Origin: Tissierellia bacterium
Lineage (GTDB): Bacteria > Bacillota > Clostridia > Tissierellales > Tissierellaceae
NCBI GenBank assembly: GCA_012519355.1
Contig: JAAYQJ010000128.1
Span: 1-43,726, forward strand
Direction of reading: 5' to 3'
DNA length: 43,726 nucleotides
A program made the translations under genes and the position numbers. This document shows, piece after piece, positions 31,593-43,726 of the stretch. Below the pieces are notes generated by a model that saw only the letters and a list, made by a program, of their open reading frames with translations, was not told the origin of the DNA and searched no databases. The stretch's first letter is position 1; each line of letters starts with the position of its first letter.

Positions 31593-32867
31593 ATGGATAA
31601 AATGGTGCTTAAGGGGGATATAGTTTTTACCTCTGTAAAGGATAGACTAGATATTTTTGAAGATTCCTACTTAATAGTTGAGAATGGAAAAGTTGTAAAA
31701 ATATCTAAGGTCTTAGAGGAATCTTACAAAGGCTATCCTTTGAAGGATTATTCAAAAAAACTAATTATACCAGGTTTTGTAGATCTTCACCTTCATGCTC
31801 CTCAATATCCTAATAGGGGTTTAGGCTTAGATAAGGAATTAATTCCTTGGTTGGAAACCTATACCTTTCCCGAAGAGGAAAAATATGATGATTTAGAATA
31901 CTCAAGAAAGGTATTTACAAGACTAATTAATGAACTTTGGAGTCTTGGTACCACAAGATCAGTTGTATTTGCTAGCGTTCATAAAGAAAGCACTAAGCTT
32001 TTGTTAGAGTTATTTTTAGAATCTGGTCTTGGAGCTTATGTGGGAAAAGTAAATATGGATAGAAATACTAAAAAGGAATTAAAAGAGGATACTAATAAGT
32101 CCATTTTAGATACAGAGGAGATAATAAAGGAATATAAAGATAAATCTAATTTAGTAAAACCTATAATTACACCTAGATTTGTACCTACCTGTAGTGAAGG
32201 CCTTTTAGAAGCCTTAGGGAATTTAGCCTTAAGATACGAAGTTCCGGTACAATCTCATCTCAATGAAAATACCAGTGAAGTTGTATGGGTTAAAGAATTG
32301 TTCCCAAATTCAAAGAATTATGCTTCAGTTTATGATGATTATAACCTATTTGGCCAAACAAAGACTATTATGGCCCATTGTATCTATAACACTGATGATG
32401 AAATAGAGCTAATGGCTGAAAATGGGGTTTATGCTGCCCATTGCCCTTATTCTAACTACAATTTATCCAGTGGTATAATGCCAGTTAGAAAATTCTTAGA
32501 TATGGGGGTACCAGTAGGATTGGCTTCAGACATTTCAGGTGGTAATAGCCTAAGTATGATGAGTATTATTGCAGCCACCATACAAGCATCGAAGATGAAA
32601 TGGCTAGATACTAATAAAGAACTTGCTCCTCTTACTTTTAGTGAAGGGTTCTATTTAGCAACTAAAGGGGGAGGTAGTTTCTTCGGTAAGGTAGGTAGCT
32701 TTGAAGAGGGTTATGATTTTGATGCATTAATTATAGATGATTCATCTCTTGCAGATATAAAGGAATTAACTATAGAAGAAAGACTGCAAAAGTTTATCTA
32801 TATAGGTGATGATAGAAATATTGTAAACAGGTATGTAGAGGGAAGGGAGATAGAAAAACCTTTCTAG
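31593..32867 (+). CDS. guaD: Guanine deaminase-like amidohydrolase
   Basis: GFVDLHLHAPQYPNRGLGLDKELIPWLETYTFPEE, VQSHLNEN, MAHCIYNTDDEIELMAENGVYAAHCPYSN, GLASDISGG. Confidence 0.82.
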   Translation: MDKMVLKGDIVFTSVKDRLDIFEDSYLIVENGKVVKISKVLEESYKGYPLKDYSKKLIIPGFVDLHLHAPQYPNRGLGLDKELIPWLETYTFPEEEKYDDLEYSRKVFTRLINELWSLGTTRSVVFASVHKESTKLLLELFLESGLGAYVGKVNMDRNTKKELKEDTNKSILDTEEIIKEYKDKSNLVKPIITPRFVPTCSEGLLEALGNLALRYEVPVQSHLNENTSEVVWVKELFPNSKNYASVYDDYNLFGQTKTIMAHCIYNTDDEIELMAENGVYAAHCPYSNYNLSSGIMPVRKFLDMGVPVGLASDISGGNSLSMMSIIAATIQASKMKWLDTNKELAPLTFSEGFYLATKGGGSFFGKVGSFEEGYDFDALIIDDSSLADIKELTIEERLQKFIYIGDDRNIVNRYVEGREIEKPF

Positions 32868-32909
32868 GCAATGGGAAAATAGATAACTGCTTTTAAAGAA
32901 GGTGTTAAT

Positions 32910-34580
32910 GTGGCTAGGCAAAATGGCATAAGTATAGAGGATATGTTAAAGCTAGATGTTATGAAATCCTGCAAATTAATTGCAGGATTTCGAGGTGCTA
33001 GAAATACCATATCTAGAGTAAATATCATGGCAGACCCAGATATAGTTGAATGGACAACAGAGGGGGAGTTTTTGTTAACCACAGCTTATTCCTTTAAAAA
33101 GGACAATATTGATGCACAAAAAGAATTGATTAGCCAATGTGCAAAGAAAAAATTAGCTGGCATTGGTATAAAAATCACACCCTATTTAGAATCCCTAGAC
33201 AATGAAGTGTTAGAATTAGCCAACGATTTAAGTTTTCCAATTATAGATATACATTATTCCATACCCCTATCAGATGTAATGATGTCTACCTTCAAGGAGA
33301 TTTTTAACAAACAGGCCTCCCTCTTAGAGAGGATTGAAATAGTTCACGAAGATTTAATGAATGCAATGTTAGAAGGAAGTGGGTTGGAGACTTTAACTGA
33401 AATAGTCCAGAACAATGTAAGGAATCCAGTTATACTCCATTTAAACTATTCAAATGAAATAGTAGAATGTTTAAGTGGAATAAGTGAAAATACATATGAT
33501 GAGTTGATAGGTGAAGTAAGGGGTTTTTATAATCCAAACAATAGCAAGAATAAATCCAAAAGGCTAATAGAGGATAAGGTTCTGATAAATGGGAAATATG
33601 TAAAGAGGATGATAATGCCCATAGTTTTAAGAGACCATATCTATGGTCATTTATTTACATGGAGTACTGATATGCCCTTGGGTGGTTTTGATCTAGCCAT
33701 TATAGAATCAGTATCCACCACCATATCCCTTTATATATTACAGGAGTTGTCCATAAAGGAAGTAGAAATAAGATATAGGTCTGAATTCTTCGAAGATCTA
33801 ATTTCTGTAGATCTAAAAAGGAAAAGAAAGGCTTTAGATAGGGCAAGGTTTTTTAATTTGCCCTTGGACAATTACTATGTTATTGAAGTTATGAGCTTTA
33901 AATTTGAAGATGAAAGAAATGACCAAGACCTCTCTATTGAATATATGAAGGATTATCTAAATCCAATAGTATCTATTATAGAAGAATTAATGGATTACTT
34001 AAAGTTTGAAGGTATAGTGTCAACTAAAGCCAATGGAATACAGATTTTATTAAGCTTTGTCGATGATGTACAGATATCAGATAGATTAAAGCGTTTTAAC
34101 GAAGATATAATAGAGTGTATATCAAACAAGTTTAATAGCCTAAATGTTAAAATAGGTATAGGAAGAATCTACAAAGGTTTAGATAATGTTGATAAGAGTT
34201 TCCAAGACGCAGTCCGTACTGTTAGGTTAGGAAAGGTAATTTCTCCAAAGGATATAGTTACCTTTGATGAGTTGGGGATATTTAAAATTTTATCCCAGGA
34301 TATACTACAAGAGGAGTTGGAGGATTTTTACAACACAACATTAAAACCTCTAGTAGATTATGATAAAAAGAGGTCTACTGAACTGGTAAAGACCTTGGAA
34401 GAATACTTCAATAATAATGGGAATTTAACCAGAATATCCGAACAACTTTTTACCCACTATAATACGATTCTCTACAGGATAAGCCGGATTTGTGAAATAA
34501 CAGGTATGGATTTGGAAAATCCAAACCATAGGCTAAATTTAGAAATAGCCTTGAAAATAAAGAAACTTTTGGACAAATAA
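32910..34580 (+). CDS. PucR-family transcriptional regulator
   Basis: N-terminal PucR domain (SCKLIAGFRGARNTISRVNIMADPDIVEWTTEGEFLLTTAYSF) and C-terminal PucR HTH (LVKTLEEYFNNNGNLTRISEQLFTHYNTILYRISRICEITG); GTG start. Confidence 0.88.
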   Translation: MARQNGISIEDMLKLDVMKSCKLIAGFRGARNTISRVNIMADPDIVEWTTEGEFLLTTAYSFKKDNIDAQKELISQCAKKKLAGIGIKITPYLESLDNEVLELANDLSFPIIDIHYSIPLSDVMMSTFKEIFNKQASLLERIEIVHEDLMNAMLEGSGLETLTEIVQNNVRNPVILHLNYSNEIVECLSGISENTYDELIGEVRGFYNPNNSKNKSKRLIEDKVLINGKYVKRMIMPIVLRDHIYGHLFTWSTDMPLGGFDLAIIESVSTTISLYILQELSIKEVEIRYRSEFFEDLISVDLKRKRKALDRARFFNLPLDNYYVIEVMSFKFEDERNDQDLSIEYMKDYLNPIVSIIEELMDYLKFEGIVSTKANGIQILLSFVDDVQISDRLKRFNEDIIECISNKFNSLNVKIGIGRIYKGLDNVDKSFQDAVRTVRLGKVISPKDIVTFDELGIFKILSQDILQEELEDFYNTTLKPLVDYDKKRSTELVKTLEEYFNNNGNLTRISEQLFTHYNTILYRISRICEITGMDLENPNHRLNLEIALKIKKLLDK

Positions 34581-34658
34581 AAGATTCTTCGCTTTAGACA
34601 GAATGACCTATGGGGGAGTAGCTCCTTTGTCATACTGATTAAGCGAAGAATCTTTTTT
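34579..34658. repeat. Long imperfect palindrome of the GATTCTTCGCTT...CAGAATGAC type, probably also acting as a terminator
   Basis: AAAAGATTCTTCGCTTtagaCAGaATGAC...GTCATaCTGattAAGCGAAGAATCTTTTTT with inner GGAG-tag-CTCC. Confidence 0.7.
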
Positions 34659-35352
34659 ATTCCTCGACTAAGGCTACAGCTCTAATAGGTGAGCCTGACC
34701 CATCCCTAATTTTTAGGGGTAATCCAATATATAAAAACCTCTTATTAACCAATTTATCTAAGTTACATAAATTTTCAGTATTGGTTATATGGTATTCTCC
34801 GCAAACACGGTGGGCAGAGAAATCAATATCATCTGGAGTTAAATCAATGGCTGGAGCATCAACTCCAATATTTACAACTCCTTTTTCAGCTAGCCATTTA
34901 GCTCCTTCATAGCTTAAACCAGAGTAATCAGTTTGAAACTTGTCTGTACCAAAGGTCCTATCATGGTGGCCAGTATATAAGAGGACTATATCTCCTTTTC
35001 TAATCTCTTGGCCAGACCTTCTCAAGGCTTCTTCCAAATCCCTTGGCTCAAAATAATTTGGATACCTAATATGGGATACATCAAGACATATAGCAGAACC
35101 CCAGAAATACTCTAAAGGCATTTTATCAATAGTAGGTCCATCGGGGTTATATTCCCATACTCCGTCACAATGGGTACCGCAGTGCTCGCTTATAAGTAGG
35201 TTTCTTGCAGAAAAACCTAATGTTTTGCTTCCTGTTTTCTCCATATTTTCCTCATGGGTCATATTAGTCATTATAAATGTAGGTTGATGCATAGGGAAAA
35301 TACTCATACCTTGGTAGATCTCTTGTGATAAGTCAATCAATTTTAAGGCCAT
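34657..35352 (-). CDS. Cyclase-family hydrolase (kynurenine formamidase-like)
   Basis: IDLSQEIYQGMSIFP, ISEHCGTHCDG (HxGTHxD), GDIVLLYTGHHDR, VNIGVDAPAIDL. Confidence 0.82.
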   Translation of the reverse strand: MALKLIDLSQEIYQGMSIFPMHQPTFIMTNMTHEENMEKTGSKTLGFSARNLLISEHCGTHCDGVWEYNPDGPTIDKMPLEYFWGSAICLDVSHIRYPNYFEPRDLEEALRRSGQEIRKGDIVLLYTGHHDRTFGTDKFQTDYSGLSYEGAKWLAEKGVVNIGVDAPAIDLTPDDIDFSAHRVCGEYHITNTENLCNLDKLVNKRFLYIGLPLKIRDGSGSPIRAVALVEE

Positions 35353-35596
35353 CTAATCCCCTCCAATAAAAAAATAATAGACAATACCTTATAAACATAT
35401 GTATTTAACTACATTGTATTATAACTAAAGTAATTGTTAAAGGATATAGAGAAAATATACAAAAATATTATAGGATTCCCACAAAATATTTGGGATATTC
35501 GTATATAACATAAGAAATTTTTATAAGAAACTAACAAGGAATAATTAACCTAAATATGGTATTATTAGTACAAATTAAATAAAGGGAGGACTATAT

Positions 35597-36967
35597 ATGT
35601 ATGATCTTATTATTAAAAATGCCAGGATACCTCAGGGAGATGACACTGTCCTTACCAATATCTTAGTTAAAGACGAAAAAATAGCAGGGTTTTTAACCGA
35701 TATTGAAGGGGTAGAGGCTAAAGAAATAATAGATGCAAAGGGATTTTTAACATTACCAGGATGTATAGATTCCCATACTCACTTTATGTACCAAGGTTTT
35801 CCTCATAGAGAAAACTTCCTAACAGGTACAGCGGCTGCAGCTAGAGGTGGAGTAACAACTATAATCGATATGCCATGTTGTTCGGTACCATCTGCTAGAA
35901 GCGTAGAACAACTTAAGCTTAAATTAGACTTAGTCGGACCTCAAGCCTTAGTAGATTATGCTATGTGGGGTGGAGTAACTGGAGAGGATGTAAGAAATGA
36001 TTGGCTCCACAATGTTCAAGAACAGGCAGATTATGGTGTAGTTGCATTTAAGGCTTATATGACACCATCAGTACCCACCTTCCCTAGGGTAACAGATCCG
36101 GAAATGTATGAATCCTTTAAAGCAGTTGCCAAAACAGGACTACCAATTGGTATACATGCTGAAAACTTTGCTATGTGCGATTTTTATGTAAAGAAATTCC
36201 AAAGAGAAGGTAGAATGGACGGACCAGCTTGGGCTGAAGCAAGAATGGAATTAGCAGAAAAAGTAGCCATTGAATTAGGAATAAGCTTTGCTGAAGATAC
36301 AGGAGCTAGACTTCATATAGTTCATATGAGTACAGGAATTGGCGCCAAATTAGTAGGAGAAGCCAAAAAGAGGGGATTAAACGTAACCTCAGAATCCTGT
36401 CCACATTATCTAACCTTGAACTATCAAGATGCAATGTCAAAATATGGTCCTTTAGCAAAAATAGCTCCTCCATTAAGGACTAAAAAAGACAACGAAATGC
36501 ATTGGGAAGGAATTAATAACGGCAGCATAGACTTTATAGCTACAGACCATGCACCATATGAAATCGAAAGCGAAAAGGCTAGAAAGGGAATGAACATCTG
36601 GACTGCATTCCCAGGTATTCCAGGTGTAGAAACTATGGTTCCTGTAGTAATAAGTGAAGGTTACAATAAAGGCAGGATTTCTTTAAGCAAATTAGTAGAA
36701 ATCTTATCTACCAATGCTGCAATCCATTATGGATTATATCCAAAGAAAGGTGCTATGTTTATCGGTTCAGATGCTGACTTTACAATAATAGATTTAGATA
36801 AGAAATGGGTAATCGATCCTAAAGAACAAGCAACTATGTGTGGCTATACTCCATTAGAAGGTATGGAATTAACAGGTAAGGTTGCAATGACCATAGTTCG
36901 TGGACACTTAGTATTTGAAGATGAAGAAGCAAGCACATTGACTAACTTAACAGATGATGAGCTATAA
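35597..36967 (+). CDS. Dihydropyrimidinase/allantoinase/hydantoinase-family cyclic amidohydrolase
   Basis: PGCIDSHTHFMYQG, FKAYMTP (metal-bridging Lys), LHIVHMSTG, ATDHAPYE; binuclear amidohydrolase pattern. Confidence 0.88.
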   Translation: MYDLIIKNARIPQGDDTVLTNILVKDEKIAGFLTDIEGVEAKEIIDAKGFLTLPGCIDSHTHFMYQGFPHRENFLTGTAAAARGGVTTIIDMPCCSVPSARSVEQLKLKLDLVGPQALVDYAMWGGVTGEDVRNDWLHNVQEQADYGVVAFKAYMTPSVPTFPRVTDPEMYESFKAVAKTGLPIGIHAENFAMCDFYVKKFQREGRMDGPAWAEARMELAEKVAIELGISFAEDTGARLHIVHMSTGIGAKLVGEAKKRGLNVTSESCPHYLTLNYQDAMSKYGPLAKIAPPLRTKKDNEMHWEGINNGSIDFIATDHAPYEIESEKARKGMNIWTAFPGIPGVETMVPVVISEGYNKGRISLSKLVEILSTNAAIHYGLYPKKGAMFIGSDADFTIIDLDKKWVIDPKEQATMCGYTPLEGMELTGKVAMTIVRGHLVFEDEEASTLTNLTDDEL

Positions 36968-36970
36968 AAA

Positions 36971-37195
36971 GTGGTTCACAACTATCCTGAAGGAGTGGAA
37001 GAAAGATATCCTGAAATATTCAAAGAGTTTCCAAATCTATATAGTAAGGAATACGAAAACTCTTATAGGAAAGAACACCCTGAATTAATCGATAAGCATA
37101 TAAGAGGAATTAAGGGTATAAAGGTACAACCAGGATTTGGAAAATTTGTTAAGAGACAAAGTATTCAAGTATTACCAAAAAAAATAACATTCTAA
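36971..37195 (+). CDS. Small protein of unknown function (74 aa), operonic
   Basis: GTG start 3 nt after the amidohydrolase stop, same strand, followed 24 nt later by the next gene; no recognised motif. Confidence 0.55.
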   Translation: MVHNYPEGVEERYPEIFKEFPNLYSKEYENSYRKEHPELIDKHIRGIKGIKVQPGFGKFVKRQSIQVLPKKITF

Positions 37196-37219
37196 GAAAA
37201 ATAATAAGGGGGAATTTAA

Positions 37220-37831
37220 GTGACAAGACATGCAATTTTAATTATCGATATGTTAAATGATTTTGCTCATCCAGATGGAGCACTATTTTGCGAAGGAAAT
37301 AGGGTAATCATTCCAAAACTACAAGAAATCTTTAAATGGGTAAGGGAAAGAAATGCTAAGGGTAACTTTGATGTACAAATAGTTCATATACAAGAAGCCC
37401 ATAGAAAAAATGACGCAGACTTTAAAGTTAGACCAGTTCACGCTGTAGATGGAACTTGGGGTTCAGACTTTATTCCTGAGTTACAGCCTGAAGGAGACGA
37501 ATATATAGTAAAGAAAAGAAGACATAGTGGCTTTGCATATACAGACTTAGACCTATTTCTAAGAGAAGAAAACATAGATACTGTTGTAGTTACAGGTACC
37601 TGGACTAATGTTTGTGTAAGAAGTACAGCTACAGATGCATTGGCTAGGGCATATAAGGTTATTACACTAACAGATGCCACCTATTCAAAAACTCAAGAAA
37701 TGCACGAATATGGACTAAAGGACTTAAGTATATTTACAAAACTTATGACCTTTGACGAGTATAAGGAAGCATGGGAAAATGGTATTGACCCATGGGTAGG
37801 TGGAGGAGACCCAGAAAATAAAGTTGAATAA
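37220..37831 (+). CDS. Isochorismatase-family cysteine amidohydrolase (N-carbamoylsarcosine amidase/ureidoacrylate hydrolase-like)
   Basis: AILIIDMLNDFAHPDGAL, KKRRHSGFAYTDLDLFL, VTGTWTNVCVRSTATDALARAYKV: Asp-Lys-Cys triad; SD aaggggga. Confidence 0.85.
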   Translation: MTRHAILIIDMLNDFAHPDGALFCEGNRVIIPKLQEIFKWVRERNAKGNFDVQIVHIQEAHRKNDADFKVRPVHAVDGTWGSDFIPELQPEGDEYIVKKRRHSGFAYTDLDLFLREENIDTVVVTGTWTNVCVRSTATDALARAYKVITLTDATYSKTQEMHEYGLKDLSIFTKLMTFDEYKEAWENGIDPWVGGGDPENKVE

Positions 37832-37832
37832 T

Positions 37833-37913
37833 GGATAGGTATTCATAGGCTAATCTAATAGGCATATGGTAGGCACCTCCTACCATATGCCATATAGGCT
37901 TTTCAGCCTATCC
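37833..37913 (+). promoter_or_regulatory. Large intercistronic stem-loop in the BMC operon
   Basis: Perfect 13-bp inverted repeat GGCATATGGTAGG-cacct-CCTACCATATGCC (37861-37891) nested in outer arms GGATAGG/CCTATCC; no U-tract. Confidence 0.75.
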
Positions 37914-37938
37914 AATACATAGAAAGAGAGGAAATAAG

Positions 37939-38493
37939 ATGAAGGTAGTAGTTGGAGTATCTGGAGGTAGTGGTTCAATTTATGCCATCTCCCTATTGAG
38001 AGCATTAAAAGAATTAAATATAGAGACCCATCTTGTTGTATCTACCATGGGAGAGTACGTAACTAATCATGAGTGCGGTGTTAGTCTTGAAGAACTAAAA
38101 TCCATGGCAACTTACTACCATGACAATAAAAACTTGGCAGCACCAATAGCAAGTGGTTCCTTTAAAGTTGACAAGATGATAGTTATACCCTGTTCCATGA
38201 AGACCCTATCCAGCGTTGCCCATGGATATACTGATTCTTTACTATCTAGGGCATGCGATGTAACCATAAAGGAAGGGCGAAAACTAATCTTAGTTCCAAG
38301 GGAAACCCCATTAAGCCCTATACATTTAGAAAACATGCTAAAACTTGCTAGGATAGGAGTTACAATATTTCCCCTAAGTCCTGGATTTTACAATCATCCA
38401 CAGACCATTGAAGAAATGGTAATCAATATGACCGGGAGATTGTTAGATACCTTGGGAGTAGAAAATAACTTAGTTAATAGATGGAAAGGGTAG
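37939..38493 (+). CDS. ubiX: UbiX-family flavin prenyltransferase
   Basis: VVVGVSGGSGSIYAISLLRALKEL, IVIPCSMKTLSSVAHGYTDSLLSRACDVTIKEGRKLILVPRETPLSPIHLENMLKLARIGVTIFP. Confidence 0.93.
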   Translation: MKVVVGVSGGSGSIYAISLLRALKELNIETHLVVSTMGEYVTNHECGVSLEELKSMATYYHDNKNLAAPIASGSFKVDKMIVIPCSMKTLSSVAHGYTDSLLSRACDVTIKEGRKLILVPRETPLSPIHLENMLKLARIGVTIFPLSPGFYNHPQTIEEMVINMTGRLLDTLGVENNLVNRWKG

Positions 38494-38509
38494 AAAAGGG
38501 GGGAGAGAA

Positions 38510-39847
38510 ATGCTAAGAAGCACCTTGAGTTTTTTAAGAGAAAGAAAGCTACTTTTAGAGTGCAACAAGGAAGTAGACTATATATATGAAATGGGAGCAG
38601 TAATGTCCTATTTTAACAATAAACAACCTATCCTATTTAATAAAATTAAGAATAATCCCTTTTCTTCCATTGGTGGCCTATATGGGGATAGGGAAATAAT
38701 CTATAGCCTATTAGGAGTGACCCATGAGAATAGGATAGAAAGGTTTATGGATGCCTTAGTCAATCCGAAACCCTATAAGGTAGTTAAGACTGGGCCAATT
38801 AAAGAAAATATTCTTAAGAGAAATATAGACCTACCCAAATTACTTCCCATAAACAAATTTCAAGAAAGAGACTCATCTAGTTTTATTACTGCAGGTGTGA
38901 TGGTGGTAAAGGATCCTACCACTGGTAAATTCTTTACTTCCATTAGAAGGCTTCAAGTTAATGGTGGGAATATACTATCTGCTCTAATCGCTTCACCTAA
39001 ACTGACAAATGATTTCTTAAGCTTAGAAAAGCAGGGAAAACCTTTGGAAGTGGCCATAGTTCTTGGCTATGATGCTCCATTTTTAATGGCATCCCAATAT
39101 AGCTCTGCAACCTATGGAATAGATAAATTTGAAATAGATTCCAACCTAAGGGGTAGCCCTCTAGAGCTAGTAGCCTGTGAAACAGTAGATTTATTGGTTC
39201 CTGCCAATGCAGAAATAGTCCTTGAAGGTAAAATAGTCCCAGGTAAAAGGGAATTAGAAGGCCCCTTTGGTGAACTAATGGGTTATTATGGTGCTCAAGC
39301 TCCACATCCAATTATAGAGGTATCTTGTGTACTACATAGGAATAATCCCATTTACCAAACTGCCTTTCCATGTAGAGAGGAGCATGTATCTAATGGACTG
39401 ATTAGGGAAGTAGAACTATATTATCATCTGAAAAATCAATTAGATGTAGTGGATGTAAATGTAACAGAAGGTGGAGGCTACAGATTTAATGCCTTTGTAT
39501 CCATTAGAAAACAAAGGGAAGGAGATGGCAAGACTGCAATACTTGCTGCCTTAGGTTTAAACAAGGATTTGAAACATGTAGTCATAGTAGATGATGATGT
39601 GGATATTTTTGATCTGCAGGATATAGAATGGGCAATAACAACTAGGTCTCAAGCATCAATGGATTATGTCATAGTAGAAGGAGCCCTAGGCTCATCCTTG
39701 GAACCCTCCCATGATTTAAGGGGAGTGACGGATAAGCTAGGCATAGATGCGACAAAACCATTAAAGGACAAAAATGGGAAATTTTCTAGAGCAATTATAC
39801 CAAATTATGATAAAATAGAGATTAGCAGATATTTTCCAAATATTTAA
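38510..39847 (+). CDS. ubiD: UbiD-family prFMN-dependent (de)carboxylase
   Basis: [86 protein letters not shown]; directly follows ubiX. Confidence 0.92.
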
Positions 39848-39925
39848 ATAACAAGAAGTTAGTTGAAGATTTAAGGGACATAGGCTTAATAAGTTTTTTA
39901 AGTATTCAGGAGAGAGGGTGGTAAA

Positions 39926-40207
39926 GTGAGAGAAGCCATAGGAATGGTTGAGACTAGGTCCTTAATTGGAGCTATAGAAGCAGCAGATGCCATGCTAAAG
40001 GCTGCCAGTGTTAAGATTATGGACTTTCGTGTCGTAGGTTCTGGATTAGTTTCTGTTACAGTAGCAGGAGATGTTGCAGCAGTTATGGCAGCAGTAGATA
40101 CTGCAAAGCTTAGGGCAGGAGCCGTGGCAGAAGTAATCTCAGCCAATGTAATACCTAGACCTCATGATGAAGTAGATAAAATTTTTGATGCTGATGGTGG
40201 TGAATAA
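39926..40207 (+). CDS. BMC-H shell protein (EutM/PduA-like), paralog 1
   Basis: AIGMVETRSLIGAIEAADAMLKAASVKI...GSGLVSVTVAGDVAAVMAAVDTA...ANVIPRPHDEVDKI; GTG start. Confidence 0.93.
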   Translation: MREAIGMVETRSLIGAIEAADAMLKAASVKIMDFRVVGSGLVSVTVAGDVAAVMAAVDTAKLRAGAVAEVISANVIPRPHDEVDKIFDADGGE

Positions 40208-40209
40208 AT

Positions 40210-40446
40210 ATGGTGAATCCATTATCTAGGGTTGGGATGAAAAACATAGTAAATAAGGGTCCCATTATTAGTTCAAATATATCGAGAAATTTACCAAGGG
40301 CAGGAAGCCTTTCCAACCTAGATGAAAGAGAAGAGGACTTGCTACAAGATATTATTAATGGCCAAAGAGAAGTTGTAGAAGGCCTAAGTACTAATAAAAC
40401 CATAACCTTGGAAGAAGCAGTTGAAAGAATTAAAAACAATTATTAA
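40210..40446 (+). CDS. Small protein of unknown function (78 aa) between shell genes
   Basis: ATG 3 nt after the BMC-H1 stop; 19-nt gap to BMC-H2; acidic helical C-terminal half; no recognised domain. Confidence 0.65.
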   Translation: MVNPLSRVGMKNIVNKGPIISSNISRNLPRAGSLSNLDEREEDLLQDIINGQREVVEGLSTNKTITLEEAVERIKNNY

Positions 40447-40464
40447 TAAGGGCGGAGGTGTAAA

Positions 40465-40833
40465 ATGAGTAAAGCATTGGGCCTCATAGAAGCGTTGGGA
40501 CTTGCAACTGCTGTTACTGCCTTAGATGCGGCAAGCAAAGCTGCTGATGTAACCCTAGTAGGATTTGAAAGGATTATAGGGGTAGGCAAAGCAGTAGGTG
40601 TAAATATACAAATAGCTGGGGAAGTAGCTGCTGTAAAGGCAGCCGTAGATGCAGGGGTTGAAGCTGGTAATAGGGTTGGAGTGATATTTTCATCCCATGT
40701 AATCCCTAGACCCCATGATGAAGTAAATGCTTTAATTGCTAAGTTTGGCAAAAACTTAAATACAAAAAAGAAAGACAAAACACCAAGTAAAAACAAGAAG
40801 GCAGAAGGCAATAGCAAAAAAGAAGAAAAGTAA
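40465..40833 (+). CDS. BMC-H shell protein, paralog 2, with Lys-rich C-terminal extension
   Basis: [61 protein letters not shown]...SSHVIPRPHDEVNALI then NTKKKDKTPSKNKKAEGNSKKEEK; SD gcggaggtg. Confidence 0.9.
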   Translation: MSKALGLIEALGLATAVTALDAASKAADVTLVGFERIIGVGKAVGVNIQIAGEVAAVKAAVDAGVEAGNRVGVIFSSHVIPRPHDEVNALIAKFGKNLNTKKKDKTPSKNKKAEGNSKKEEK

Positions 40834-40894
40834 AATTTGTTATTAAAGAAGGAAAGTAAAAAAACTAATAAATTTATATTAAGGAGGAATATGA

Positions 40895-41173
40895 ATGAGT
40901 CAAGCATTAGGATTAGTTGAAACTAAAGGATTAGTAGGAAGTATAGAGGCTGCAGATGCCATGGTTAAAGCTGCAAATGTTACGTTAGTAGGTTATGAAA
41001 AAATAGGTTTTGGTCTTGTAACAGTTATGGTTAGAGGAGATGTAGGGGCTGTAAAAGCAGCAGTAGATGCTGGAGCAGAAGCTGCTAGAGCTGTTGGAGA
41101 ACTACACTCAGTTCATGTAATCCCAAGACCACATGCAGAAGTAGAAAGGGTTATATTAAAGCAATACGAATAA
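40895..41173 (+). CDS. BMC-H shell protein, paralog 3 (canonical)
   Basis: [85 protein letters not shown] aaggagga. Confidence 0.95.
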
Positions 41174-41192
41174 ATCCATTGGAGTGTTTTAG

Positions 41193-41939
41193 ATGAAAAC
41201 CAAGATAACTTCAAACGTATTGGAGGATCTATCTAGGAGGCTTAAGGGGGATAGTAGTTCTGTTAGTGGTGAGGGAGTAGTAGTAGTTTTCAATGGTTCA
41301 AATATTAGGTTAGATAAGAAATTAGAATATATAAAGTCACTAAAACAAAGGGGAATGATGATATCCTTAGCCTTTTCCTTTATGGCAGAAGGCATAATAG
41401 ATACAAAAAGGATAGTAGATTATTTAAATCCATATAAAGTTTATAAGGAAGCAGATATATTTAATCTACAAGACATAGTAAGGGAAAATTCAACACTAAT
41501 AGGACCAAATATTACAACAAATACCTTGTCCAAGGTTGCATTAGGTATGATAGATAGTTTTGTACCAAGCCTTATATGGACCTTCCTTTATAAAAATAAA
41601 AAAGTATATTTAGACTTTTCATCAGTAAAACAATACCTGGGGGAAGAGACCCAGAACAAAGGCATTTTAGACTTAATTAATGGGCATGTAAAGACCTTAG
41701 AAAAGATGGGTGCTATAGAGATCAATGAAAACAATTTTAAGCAAGTTTACCTTGATGGGGTACAAATTCCAATTGTTGACAGTGACAGGAAAGTAGAAGG
41801 CATAAAAAAGGTACTTACAGAGAAGGATATATTGTCCATATCGGCTAAGTCTAATCTAATATTACCAAGGGGAACTATATTGACTCCTTTAGCCAAGGAT
41901 AAGTCAAAGGAAAAAAACATTACAATCCAATTTAAGTAA
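41193..41939 (+). CDS. BMC-associated HFCD flavoprotein-like protein
   Basis: GVVVVFNGSNIRLDKKLEYIKSLKQRG, NTLSKVALGMIDSFVPSLIWTFLYKNKKVYLDF (flavoprotein-like), C-terminal ILPRGTILTPLAKDKSKEKNI. Confidence 0.6.
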   Translation: MKTKITSNVLEDLSRRLKGDSSSVSGEGVVVVFNGSNIRLDKKLEYIKSLKQRGMMISLAFSFMAEGIIDTKRIVDYLNPYKVYKEADIFNLQDIVRENSTLIGPNITTNTLSKVALGMIDSFVPSLIWTFLYKNKKVYLDFSSVKQYLGEETQNKGILDLINGHVKTLEKMGAIEINENNFKQVYLDGVQIPIVDSDRKVEGIKKVLTEKDILSISAKSNLILPRGTILTPLAKDKSKEKNITIQFK

Positions 41940-41951
41940 GGGGGGCTAGAT

Positions 41952-42233
41952 TTGCTCTTAGGAAAAGTTATAGGAACCGTAGTTGCAACTAGAAAGGACG
42001 AAAAGTTAATAGGGTCTAAGCTGATGATTACACAGCCTCTCGATTTAGAATTAAATCCAAAAGGAGATCCGATTATTGCTGTAGACACTGTAGGTGCAGG
42101 GATAGGTGAATTGGTAGTCTATACTACTGGAACAGCAGGTAGAATTGCTGCTAGAAAACTAGATGCCCCTATAGATGCTGCAATAATAGGTATTATAGAT
42201 GAGATGGATGTAAACAAAAAAGTATTAGAATAG
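41952..42233 (+). CDS. BMC-P vertex shell protein (EutN/CcmL family)
   Basis: LGKVIGTVVATRKDEKLIGSKLMITQPLD...IIAVDTVGAGIGELVVYTTGTAGRIAARKLDAPIDAAIIGIID; TTG start after aaggggggc. Confidence 0.93.
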   Translation: MLLGKVIGTVVATRKDEKLIGSKLMITQPLDLELNPKGDPIIAVDTVGAGIGELVVYTTGTAGRIAARKLDAPIDAAIIGIIDEMDVNKKVLE

Positions 42234-42254
42234 ACCATAGAAGGGGGGAAAGCG

Positions 42255-43726
42255 TTGAAAGATACTAAATACTTGAAAATGGCTATGGAATATAGGTCCC
42301 TAATAGATGCCCTAATGAGCAACAAGGAATTTGCTGATACAGTCCTTGTTGGCGGAGAAGTAGTCAATGTAATTACTAGGGAAATATATAAGGCTGATAT
42401 AGCCATAAAACATGGATATATTTTACTGGTGGGAGACTGTAGAGATTTAATAGGACCAGACACTACTGTAATAGATGTAAGTGGAAAATACCTATCACCA
42501 GGCTTTATAGATTCCCATATGCATTTTGAATCCAGTATGCTTACAGTTACAGAATTTTCCAGGCTATCCATACCTTCAGGAACTACTACCTTGGTTGCAG
42601 ACCCACATGAAATAGGAAATGCCCTAGGTCCTGTAGGTATGAAGGCTATAGCTGATGAAATAGACAATGTTCCATCTAATGTTTATTTAGTAGTCCCTGC
42701 CTTAACACCTGATTGCCCAGGATTGGAAACAGCAGGTTATGATACAAACTCTAAGGATATGGAGGACTTACTAAATTATAAAAACATAATAGGAATAGGA
42801 GAATTGCAAGGTTTCAGTAATGCTAAACATGTATATAGAAATACTCCAGAAATAATTACGGATTTGCTTGCTTCCACCATGTATGCCAAATCAAAAAATA
42901 TGGTTGTAGATGGAAATGCTCCAGAACTATTCGGGAAAGAATTAGCAGCCCATATAATTGCTACAGCTGGCAAATGTTCTTGTCATGAGACAACAACAAA
43001 GGAAGAAGCCATGGAAAAACTTCGTCAGGGAGTATACCTATTCATGAGAGAAGGCTCAACTCAAAAGAATATGGCAGAGTGTATAAGGGCAGTCACTGAA
43101 GAAGGCATGGACTCAAGAAGGTGTATTTTAGCTACAGACGATATGGTAGCTGCAGATTTGGAAACCTTAGGTCATATGAATGAAATAATTAGGAGGACCA
43201 TAAGAGAGGGGATTAGCCCTACAGAAGCAATTCAAATGGCTACTATAAATCCAGCCACATATTTTGGTCTTGACCATGTAGGAGTATTAGCTCCTGGAAA
43301 ACAAGCAGATATAGCTATTATAGATGACATCTATGAAATGACTGTGGCAGGAGTATTCTTGAAAGGTCAATTAGTAGCTGCCAATGGAGAGCTTCTAATA
43401 GATTTACCTAGATATATTTATCCTGAAGAAGTGAAAAACTCTGTTAAAAGAGGTCCAATTACTGAAAGGGATTTAGAAGTCTTAGCAGACTCACCTACTG
43501 TAAGAGTAAGGTGTATAGAAGTAATACCAGATCAAAACTTGACAGGTAAGGGAGAGGAAACCTTAAGGACTAGTAGAGGTGTAGTGGAACCAGATGTTTC
43601 AAAGGATACTCTAGCCATAGCCTGTGTTGAAAGATATAATCGTTCAAATTCAATAGGTAAGGCCTTTGTAAAGGGCTTTGGTTTAAGAGAAGGAGCCTTT
43701 GCAGAATCTGTAGGACATGATACTCA
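42255..43726 (+). CDS. ade: Adenine deaminase-like amidohydrolase (3' end truncated by window)
   Basis: Open frame translated by hand from TTG 42255 (alternative ATG 42279), absent from the ORF track: SPGFIDSHMHFESSMLTVTEFSRLSIPSGTTTLVADPHEIGNALG, ILATDDMVAADLETLGHMNEIIRRTIREGISPTEAIQMATINPATYFGLDHVGVLAPGKQADIAIIDD. Confidence 0.85.
   Translation, partial: MKDTKYLKMAMEYRSLIDALMSNKEFADTVLVGGEVVNVITREIYKADIAIKHGYILLVGDCRDLIGPDTTVIDVSGKYLSPGFIDSHMHFESSMLTVTEFSRLSIPSGTTTLVADPHEIGNALGPVGMKAIADEIDNVPSNVYLVVPALTPDCPGLETAGYDTNSKDMEDLLNYKNIIGIGELQGFSNAKHVYRNTPEIITDLLASTMYAKSKNMVVDGNAPELFGKELAAHIIATAGKCSCHETTTKEEAMEKLRQGVYLFMREGSTQKNMAECIRAVTEEGMDSRRCILATDDMVAADLETLGHMNEIIRRTIREGISPTEAIQMATINPATYFGLDHVGVLAPGKQADIAIIDDIYEMTVAGVFLKGQLVAANGELLIDLPRYIYPEEVKNSVKRGPITERDLEVLADSPTVRVRCIEVIPDQNLTGKGEETLRTSRGVVEPDVSKDTLAIACVERYNRSNSIGKAFVKGFGLREGAFAESVGHDT

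Follow-up and report, generated by a model that had tools for sequence, protein, structure and literature searches.

Microcompartment shell loci that lack a metabolosome core have been described under the names BUF (Axen 2014, PMC4207490), BUF1 (Sutter 2021, PMC8217296), and Xau (Ravcheev 2019, PMC6620236), and the anaerobic degradation of xanthine, including the decarboxylation, has been predicted for this locus type (PMC6620236). A gene cluster for the xanthinase pathway in Clostridia and Bacilli has been credited to Tong et al. (2023), on the basis of comparative genomics and experiment, in later papers (PMC12507026 and PMC12990295), one of which, from 2025, gives xanthinase as a slow enzyme with a kcat of 0.1 per second. 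The locus presented here occupies positions 31593-43726 of the window, the whole 43,726-base stretch of DNA that was analysed, which is the complete contig C257 of a 2.16-Mb, 84% complete draft genome of a Tissierellia bacterium whose closest named relatives are Tissierellia metagenome-assembled genomes. It is very probably a Xau/BUF1 microcompartment for the anaerobic fermentation of xanthine by the Rabinowitz ("xanthinase") pathway. It is a new example of a published cluster type and pathway. An earlier reading of the window, made from the sequence only, had supposed that the locus type might already be catalogued, and the comparison with catalogued loci shows that it is (BUF/BUF1/Xau). It had also expected novelty in a stepwise assignment that includes UbiD, an expectation that has to be given up, because Ravcheev 2019 had already assigned the decarboxylase and a gene cluster is credited to Tong et al. 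(2023) in the citing papers mentioned above.

Like BUF, BUF1, and Xau, the locus combines shell genes without a metabolosome core with amidohydrolases, an isochorismatase, a carboxy-lyase, a formiminotransferase, and a xanthine dehydrogenase, and the gene order of its relatives fits the description of Amet_4568-4587, with its conserved order of amidohydrolases, isochorismatase, and decarboxylase. In contrast to the BUF locus of Axen 2014, for which a BMC-T is listed, no BMC-T was found in the genus of the window or in complete relatives. Unlike in BUF and Xau, formimidoyltransferase and xanthine dehydrogenase lie on a separate contig here, and our assignment of the enzymes differs from that of Ravcheev's Xau at three steps. 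The xanthinase cluster of Tong et al. (2023), as described in the citing papers, likewise leads anaerobically from xanthine to glycine through hydrolases and a decarboxylase in Clostridia and Bacilli.

Conservation of the locus and its occurrence in Gottschalkia acidurici

A profile scan with UbiD, in which each species was represented by a single genome, yielded 120 relatives, and 80 named loci were retrieved; the scan favoured relatives near conserved patterns and therefore leaves room for versions without a shell. BMC-H genes adjoin UbiD in all 80 loci fetched. Gene presence was counted in those 53 loci that extend for at least 8 kb to each side of UbiD. UbiX, UbiD, BMC-H2, BMC-H3, BMC-P, and the adenine-deaminase-like amidohydrolase (Ade) are each present in 53/53, followed by the cyclic amidohydrolase (51/53), the cyclase-family hydrolase (50/53), XdhA1 (46/53), the permease (39/53), formimidoyltransferase (36/53), a deoxyadenosine-deaminase-like protein (33/53), and PucR (32/53). 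This constancy, together with the BMC-H genes beside UbiD in 80/80 loci, excludes a chance co-occurrence of shell and enzyme genes. Guanine deaminase adjoins the locus in Tissierella-type relatives, and the operons of relatives are also joined by xanthine permease, a split xanthine dehydrogenase, formimidoyltransferase, and formate-tetrahydrofolate (THF) ligase. The hosts include Tissierella, Alkaliphilus, Caloramator, Romboutsia, Paraclostridium, Acidaminobacter, Fictibacillus, and Neobacillus, and BMC-H3 is 77-99% identical between loci. The molybdenum subunit of xanthine dehydrogenase is encoded in Xau loci by two genes, one with MoCoBD_1 and one with MoCoBD_2 (L018, 15703-17966; L186, 2193-4459).

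The same locus is carried by the purine-fermenting specialist Gottschalkia acidurici 9a (G450), whose ferredoxin is 100% identical to PDB 1FDN, the C. acidurici ferredoxin. The complete operon is found at about 3.042-3.055 Mb of its genome, accompanied by PucR, an FchA-like gene, and a divergent cyclase. Near 0.321 Mb, its formimidoyltransferase adjoins formate-THF ligase. G451, which is probably G. purinilytica, likewise carries the locus. In the 2012 genome paper on C. acidurici 9a, the genes between xanthine and glycine were not found. Because the same locus is present in G. acidurici 9a and shell genes accompany UbiD in every locus fetched, the purine reading is strongly supported, and the function in xanthine degradation that the sequence-only reading had proposed is borne out by the gene families, the company of purine genes, and the G. 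acidurici locus. No literature pairing Gottschalkia with a microcompartment was found, which says little, as the coverage of papers was partial. Gottschalkia and Synergistales also share a recurring pair of genes, one for a membrane-like protein of 350 aa and the other for an additional isochorismatase-family protein that is 35-37% identical (L061, 9007-10670; L064, 9823-11546; L088, 5423-7095); the L088 copy of the membrane-like protein was searched and had no Pfam match.

Enzymes and the proposed pathway

All genes named in the sequence-only reading of 31593-43726 were recovered at their positions in the open reading frame (ORF) list and by Pfam and NCBIfam, with PF00936 matched three times; the ORF of a 78-aa protein and an interruption of the amidohydrolase frame had been missed. 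The individual steps, as well as the enclosure of the enzymes, are what we infer from these genes. Xanthine would be supplied by xanthine dehydrogenase and, from guanine, by the guanine deaminase GuaD (31593-32867, forward strand, as are all genes below unless stated), which matches the equivalog model TIGR02967 with 401 bits against a cut-off of 375. It is followed by a PucR-family regulator of purine catabolism (32910-34580; PF07905, PF13556, and PF17853). The cyclic amidohydrolase (35597-37195; PF01979) is hydantoinase/allantoinase-like, scores below the cut-offs of the single-function NCBIfam models shown, and has metal-site motifs that are kept in 69 homologues. Its type suits the hydrolysis of a cyclic ureide to an N-carbamoyl acid, and it may act as the xanthine amidohydrolase (xanthinase), cleaving the pyrimidine ring to give 4-ureido-5-imidazolecarboxylate. 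The isochorismatase-family amidase (37220-37831; PF00857) would then strip the carbamoyl group from this compound. Its D, K, and C motifs are intact and conserved, it is a distant relative of N-carbamoylsarcosine amidase and RutB, and its nearest solved structure is 3HB7, whose sequence (likely from Alkaliphilus metalliredigens) has a best match of 78% within the family searched.

The decarboxylation of 4-amino-5-imidazolecarboxylate is proposed for the UbiD-family enzyme (38510-39847; PF01977, PF20695, PF20696, and TIGR00148), with prenylated FMN (prFMN) made by the flavin prenyltransferase UbiX (37939-38493; TIGR00421, above cut-off). The nearest solved relative of this UbiD is HmfF (6H6V), and its EGPFGE and RR-Q motifs are kept across the 80 loci. 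It shares with HmfF and HudA the family, the UbiX partner providing prFMN, and the conserved catalytic motifs, and HudA has a low activity that turns imidazole-4-carboxylate into imidazole; this kinship and this activity support the role that the sequence-only reading had given to UbiD. HmfF acts on furandicarboxylate, whereas the UbiDs of Xau loci form their own shell-associated group.

Ade (42255-43726) runs off the end of the contig, with 490 of about 604 aa present, and would deaminate 4-aminoimidazole. The partial sequence reaches 366 bits with the adenine deaminase model TIGR01178, below its cut-off of 472.5, and the full-length homologue from G. acidurici falls just below it with 459 bits, whereas the separate Ade2 of G427 scores 612, well above. 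These scores are consistent with an altered substrate of the Xau Ade-like enzymes. The sequence-only reading had let Ade deaminate or open aminoimidazole or imidazolone; the step at aminoimidazole is supported, and the opening of imidazolone is better given to the cyclase-family metal hydrolase (34657-35352, reverse strand; PF04199), which that stepwise scheme, though it named the steps, had left without a role. Its model matches kynurenine formamidase and isatin hydrolase, with which it shares fold and family, and isatin hydrolase opens a five-membered lactam. Unlike in these enzymes, the metal motif of the Xau cyclase family lacks its usual third histidine, in whose place E67 is conserved, and the substrate of the cyclase is a prediction. 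It is the best candidate for the opening of 4-imidazolone to formiminoglycine, from which formimidoyltransferase would transfer the formimino group to THF and leave glycine. The abstract of the Tong study reportedly names a prFMN-dependent decarboxylase together with four hydrolases, each from another family, which would match the set of enzymes seen here.

Formimidoyltransferase is encoded on contig C248 of the same genome. This contig begins within a xanthine/uracil-type permease gene and continues with XdhB, XdhC, XdhA1, XdhA2, a methyl-accepting-type protein, a MobA-like protein, and formimidoyltransferase (TIGR02024). C248 is very likely the missing downstream half of the locus, judging from gene order, because the permease and dehydrogenase genes directly follow Ade in the same-genus genome G391. 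Formimidoyltransferase and xanthine dehydrogenase, which lie on C248 here, are thus contiguous with the locus in G391. Neither an aldehyde dehydrogenase nor another metabolosome core enzyme was found among the ORFs of the window locus or in the annotated part of C248, to which the search was confined.

Shell and small proteins

The profile search for shell types gave three BMC-H proteins, all passing PF00936, and one BMC-P, passing PF03319, all encoded beside the enzyme genes. They are BMC-H1 (39926-40207), BMC-H2 (40465-40833), which has a charged C-terminal tail, BMC-H3 (40895-41173; E value of 1.9e-30), the most conserved shell protein, and the vertex protein BMC-P (41952-42233). A shell built of them would probably hold back labile imidazole intermediates. 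No BMC-T was found with PF00936 in the 84% complete genome of the window, in two same-genus genomes, in G064 (100% complete), or in the one-contig genome G408, which have just three single-domain BMC-H. Since the enzyme set and the gene order otherwise fit BUF1/Xau, we treat this absence as a variant trait. G. acidurici has a two-domain BMC protein, distant from its locus.

Between BMC-H1 and BMC-H2 lies the ORF of the 78-aa protein (40210-40446), which has homologues at the same position in most loci (most of L071-L141). The protein has no Pfam family and is apparently disordered. Its homologues, of which 65 with 65-260 aa were kept after filtering, share an N-terminal N-P-L-A-R-V-V-M-x-N-I pattern that resembles an encapsulation peptide, and each contains one to several motifs of the type [ST]-[LIF]-x-x-[LIAVY], with 107 copies against 16 expected in shuffles, a count that is only indicative, as the membership filter and the motif were both set after the sequences had been viewed. 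CsoS2 and CcmN are scaffold or linker proteins of carboxysomes. The 78-aa protein may work like them, with its apparent disorder, peptide-like terminus, and short repeats, a comparison of possible function and not of sequence. As the enzymes carry no comparable peptides, it is a reasonable guess, though no more than that, that this protein is a scaffold or cargo linker. In Bacilli and Carboxydothermus (L145-L150 and L142), the position of the small protein is held by larger proteins, of some 290-330 aa, whose N-terminus is helix-like and differs from that of the small protein.

The protein encoded at 41193-41939 has no Pfam match and matches TIGR02536 weakly; TIGR02536-type relatives of it are named for ethanolamine loci. 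Its AlphaFold model (mean pLDDT of 84) consists of a helix at residues 2-17, which resembles an encapsulation peptide, a disordered linker, and an FMN-protein fold of the UbiX/EpiD type, and the label "flavoprotein-like" that it had been given therefore stands. Encoded beside prFMN enzymes, it might serve as a flavin carrier.

Alternative readings and loci without the front-end pair

The amidohydrolase and its isochorismatase partner are absent from three loci, L129 (Neofamilia massiliensis), L140 (Oscillospiraceae), and L088 (Synergistales), whose genomes contain only distant homologues of the amidohydrolase (31-35% identity) and isochorismatases of at most 38%. The three loci keep the shell, UbiX, UbiD, Ade, the cyclase, and formimidoyltransferase (FTCD). 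Each of the three also has a gene for an M20 amidohydrolase, these being 44-48% identical to one another, and L129 and L088 share an AbgT transporter at 63% identity. They lie at three places in the UbiD tree, at least two of which are forced by well-supported branches. L082 was also considered and dropped, since both members of the pair are encoded elsewhere in its genome. Because the pair is missing from three scattered loci in which the cyclase, Ade, and UbiD stay together, it behaves, in the gene sets compared, as a detachable front end. No earlier description of this pair-less variant, or of the possible scaffold protein, was found.

This pattern suggests that the pair would catalyze the first two steps, as the sequence-only reading had proposed, and that the cyclase would be the imidazolonase, unlike the assignment of XauA, XauF, and XauE by Ravcheev. 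In that published order (PMC6620236), the pathway is the same, but XauA, which opens xanthine, is the cyclase, XauF, which opens imidazolone, is the cyclic amidohydrolase, and XauE, which deaminates aminoimidazole, is the protein at the position of Amet_4572; the two candidates for ring opening both belong to hydrolases of cyclic amides. We mapped the Amet numbers by gene order in A. peptidifermentans (L096), not from the Amet genome. The Amet_4572-position protein scores as a 5'-deoxyadenosine deaminase (720 bits against 522) and occurs in 33/53 loci, against 53/53 for Ade, and the three pair-less loci, of which L140 is a high-GC metagenome sequence, keep the cyclase, Ade, and formimidoyltransferase without the pair. 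Ravcheev's order is thus improbable, though on the pair-less side the argument comes from three loci only. Less credible still is that the locus breaks down another cyclic amide, of the hydantoin, dihydropyrimidine, or creatinine type, and that UbiD acts on some unrelated aromatic acid. The hydantoinase/allantoinase-like amidohydrolase, which passes no single-function model, would allow it, but the constant company of PucR, guanine deaminase, Xan_ur_permease, xanthine dehydrogenase, and formimidoyltransferase does not fit such a substrate, nor does the locus in a purine specialist such as G. acidurici or the published work on the xanthinase pathway, as described in the citing papers.

Several points weigh against an encapsulated xanthine fermentation in the Tissierellia bacterium. 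The ORF of the cyclic amidohydrolase ends at an in-frame TAA (36965-36967), after which the frame is open to 37195; the TAA aligns with CAA in the two nearest relatives, which belong to the same genus, and either reflects a genuine nonsense mutation or arose as an error in the assembly. The join of C257 and C248 is deduced from relatives in a draft genome, and expression, enzyme activity, and localisation in this organism are predictions from its genes. No clear encapsulation peptides were recognised on UbiD, UbiX, the isochorismatase, or Ade, so that their place inside the shell is only a prediction; UbiD, the isochorismatase, and UbiX have the lengths of their solved homologues, and Ade has just a short extra N-terminal helix. 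The conserved C-terminal tail of the amidohydrolase was rejected as an encapsulation peptide, as it may simply belong to the hydantoinase fold. It is therefore conceivable, if on balance unlikely, that the pathway enzymes are cytosolic and that the shell holds only a part of them, such as UbiD and Ade, or has other contents. The missing peptides speak for such an arrangement, and in Ravcheev's scheme the pathway begins and ends with steps outside the shell (PMC6620236). On the other side, the shell genes lie within the enzyme operon in 80/80 loci, and the 78-aa-type and 41193 proteins, with their peptide-like N-termini, could recruit cargo.

In a broader and more doubtful proposal, the organelle would serve as a 4-amino-5-imidazolecarboxylate module to which different front ends can be attached. 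In this proposal, which we put forward tentatively, the variant of L129, L088, and partly L140 would import an amide-linked aminoimidazole through AbgT and cleave it with the M20 enzyme, and the 78-aa-type protein would act throughout the class as the scaffold for cargo. As part of the same joint proposal, the substrate might be N-(5-aminoimidazole-4-carbonyl)-aspartate, the base of SAICAR and an analogue of p-aminobenzoyl-glutamate.

The occurrence of the locus in the model organism G. acidurici 9a ties an anaerobic purine fermentation that was defined in the 1950s to a protein organelle, and the link between shell and pathway is therefore directly testable. The 78-aa protein may offer a handle on how enzymes are recruited by a shell without aldehyde chemistry. 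The swapped front ends suggest that the conserved chemistry of the organelle would be the handling of labile aminoimidazoles, and not of xanthine as such.

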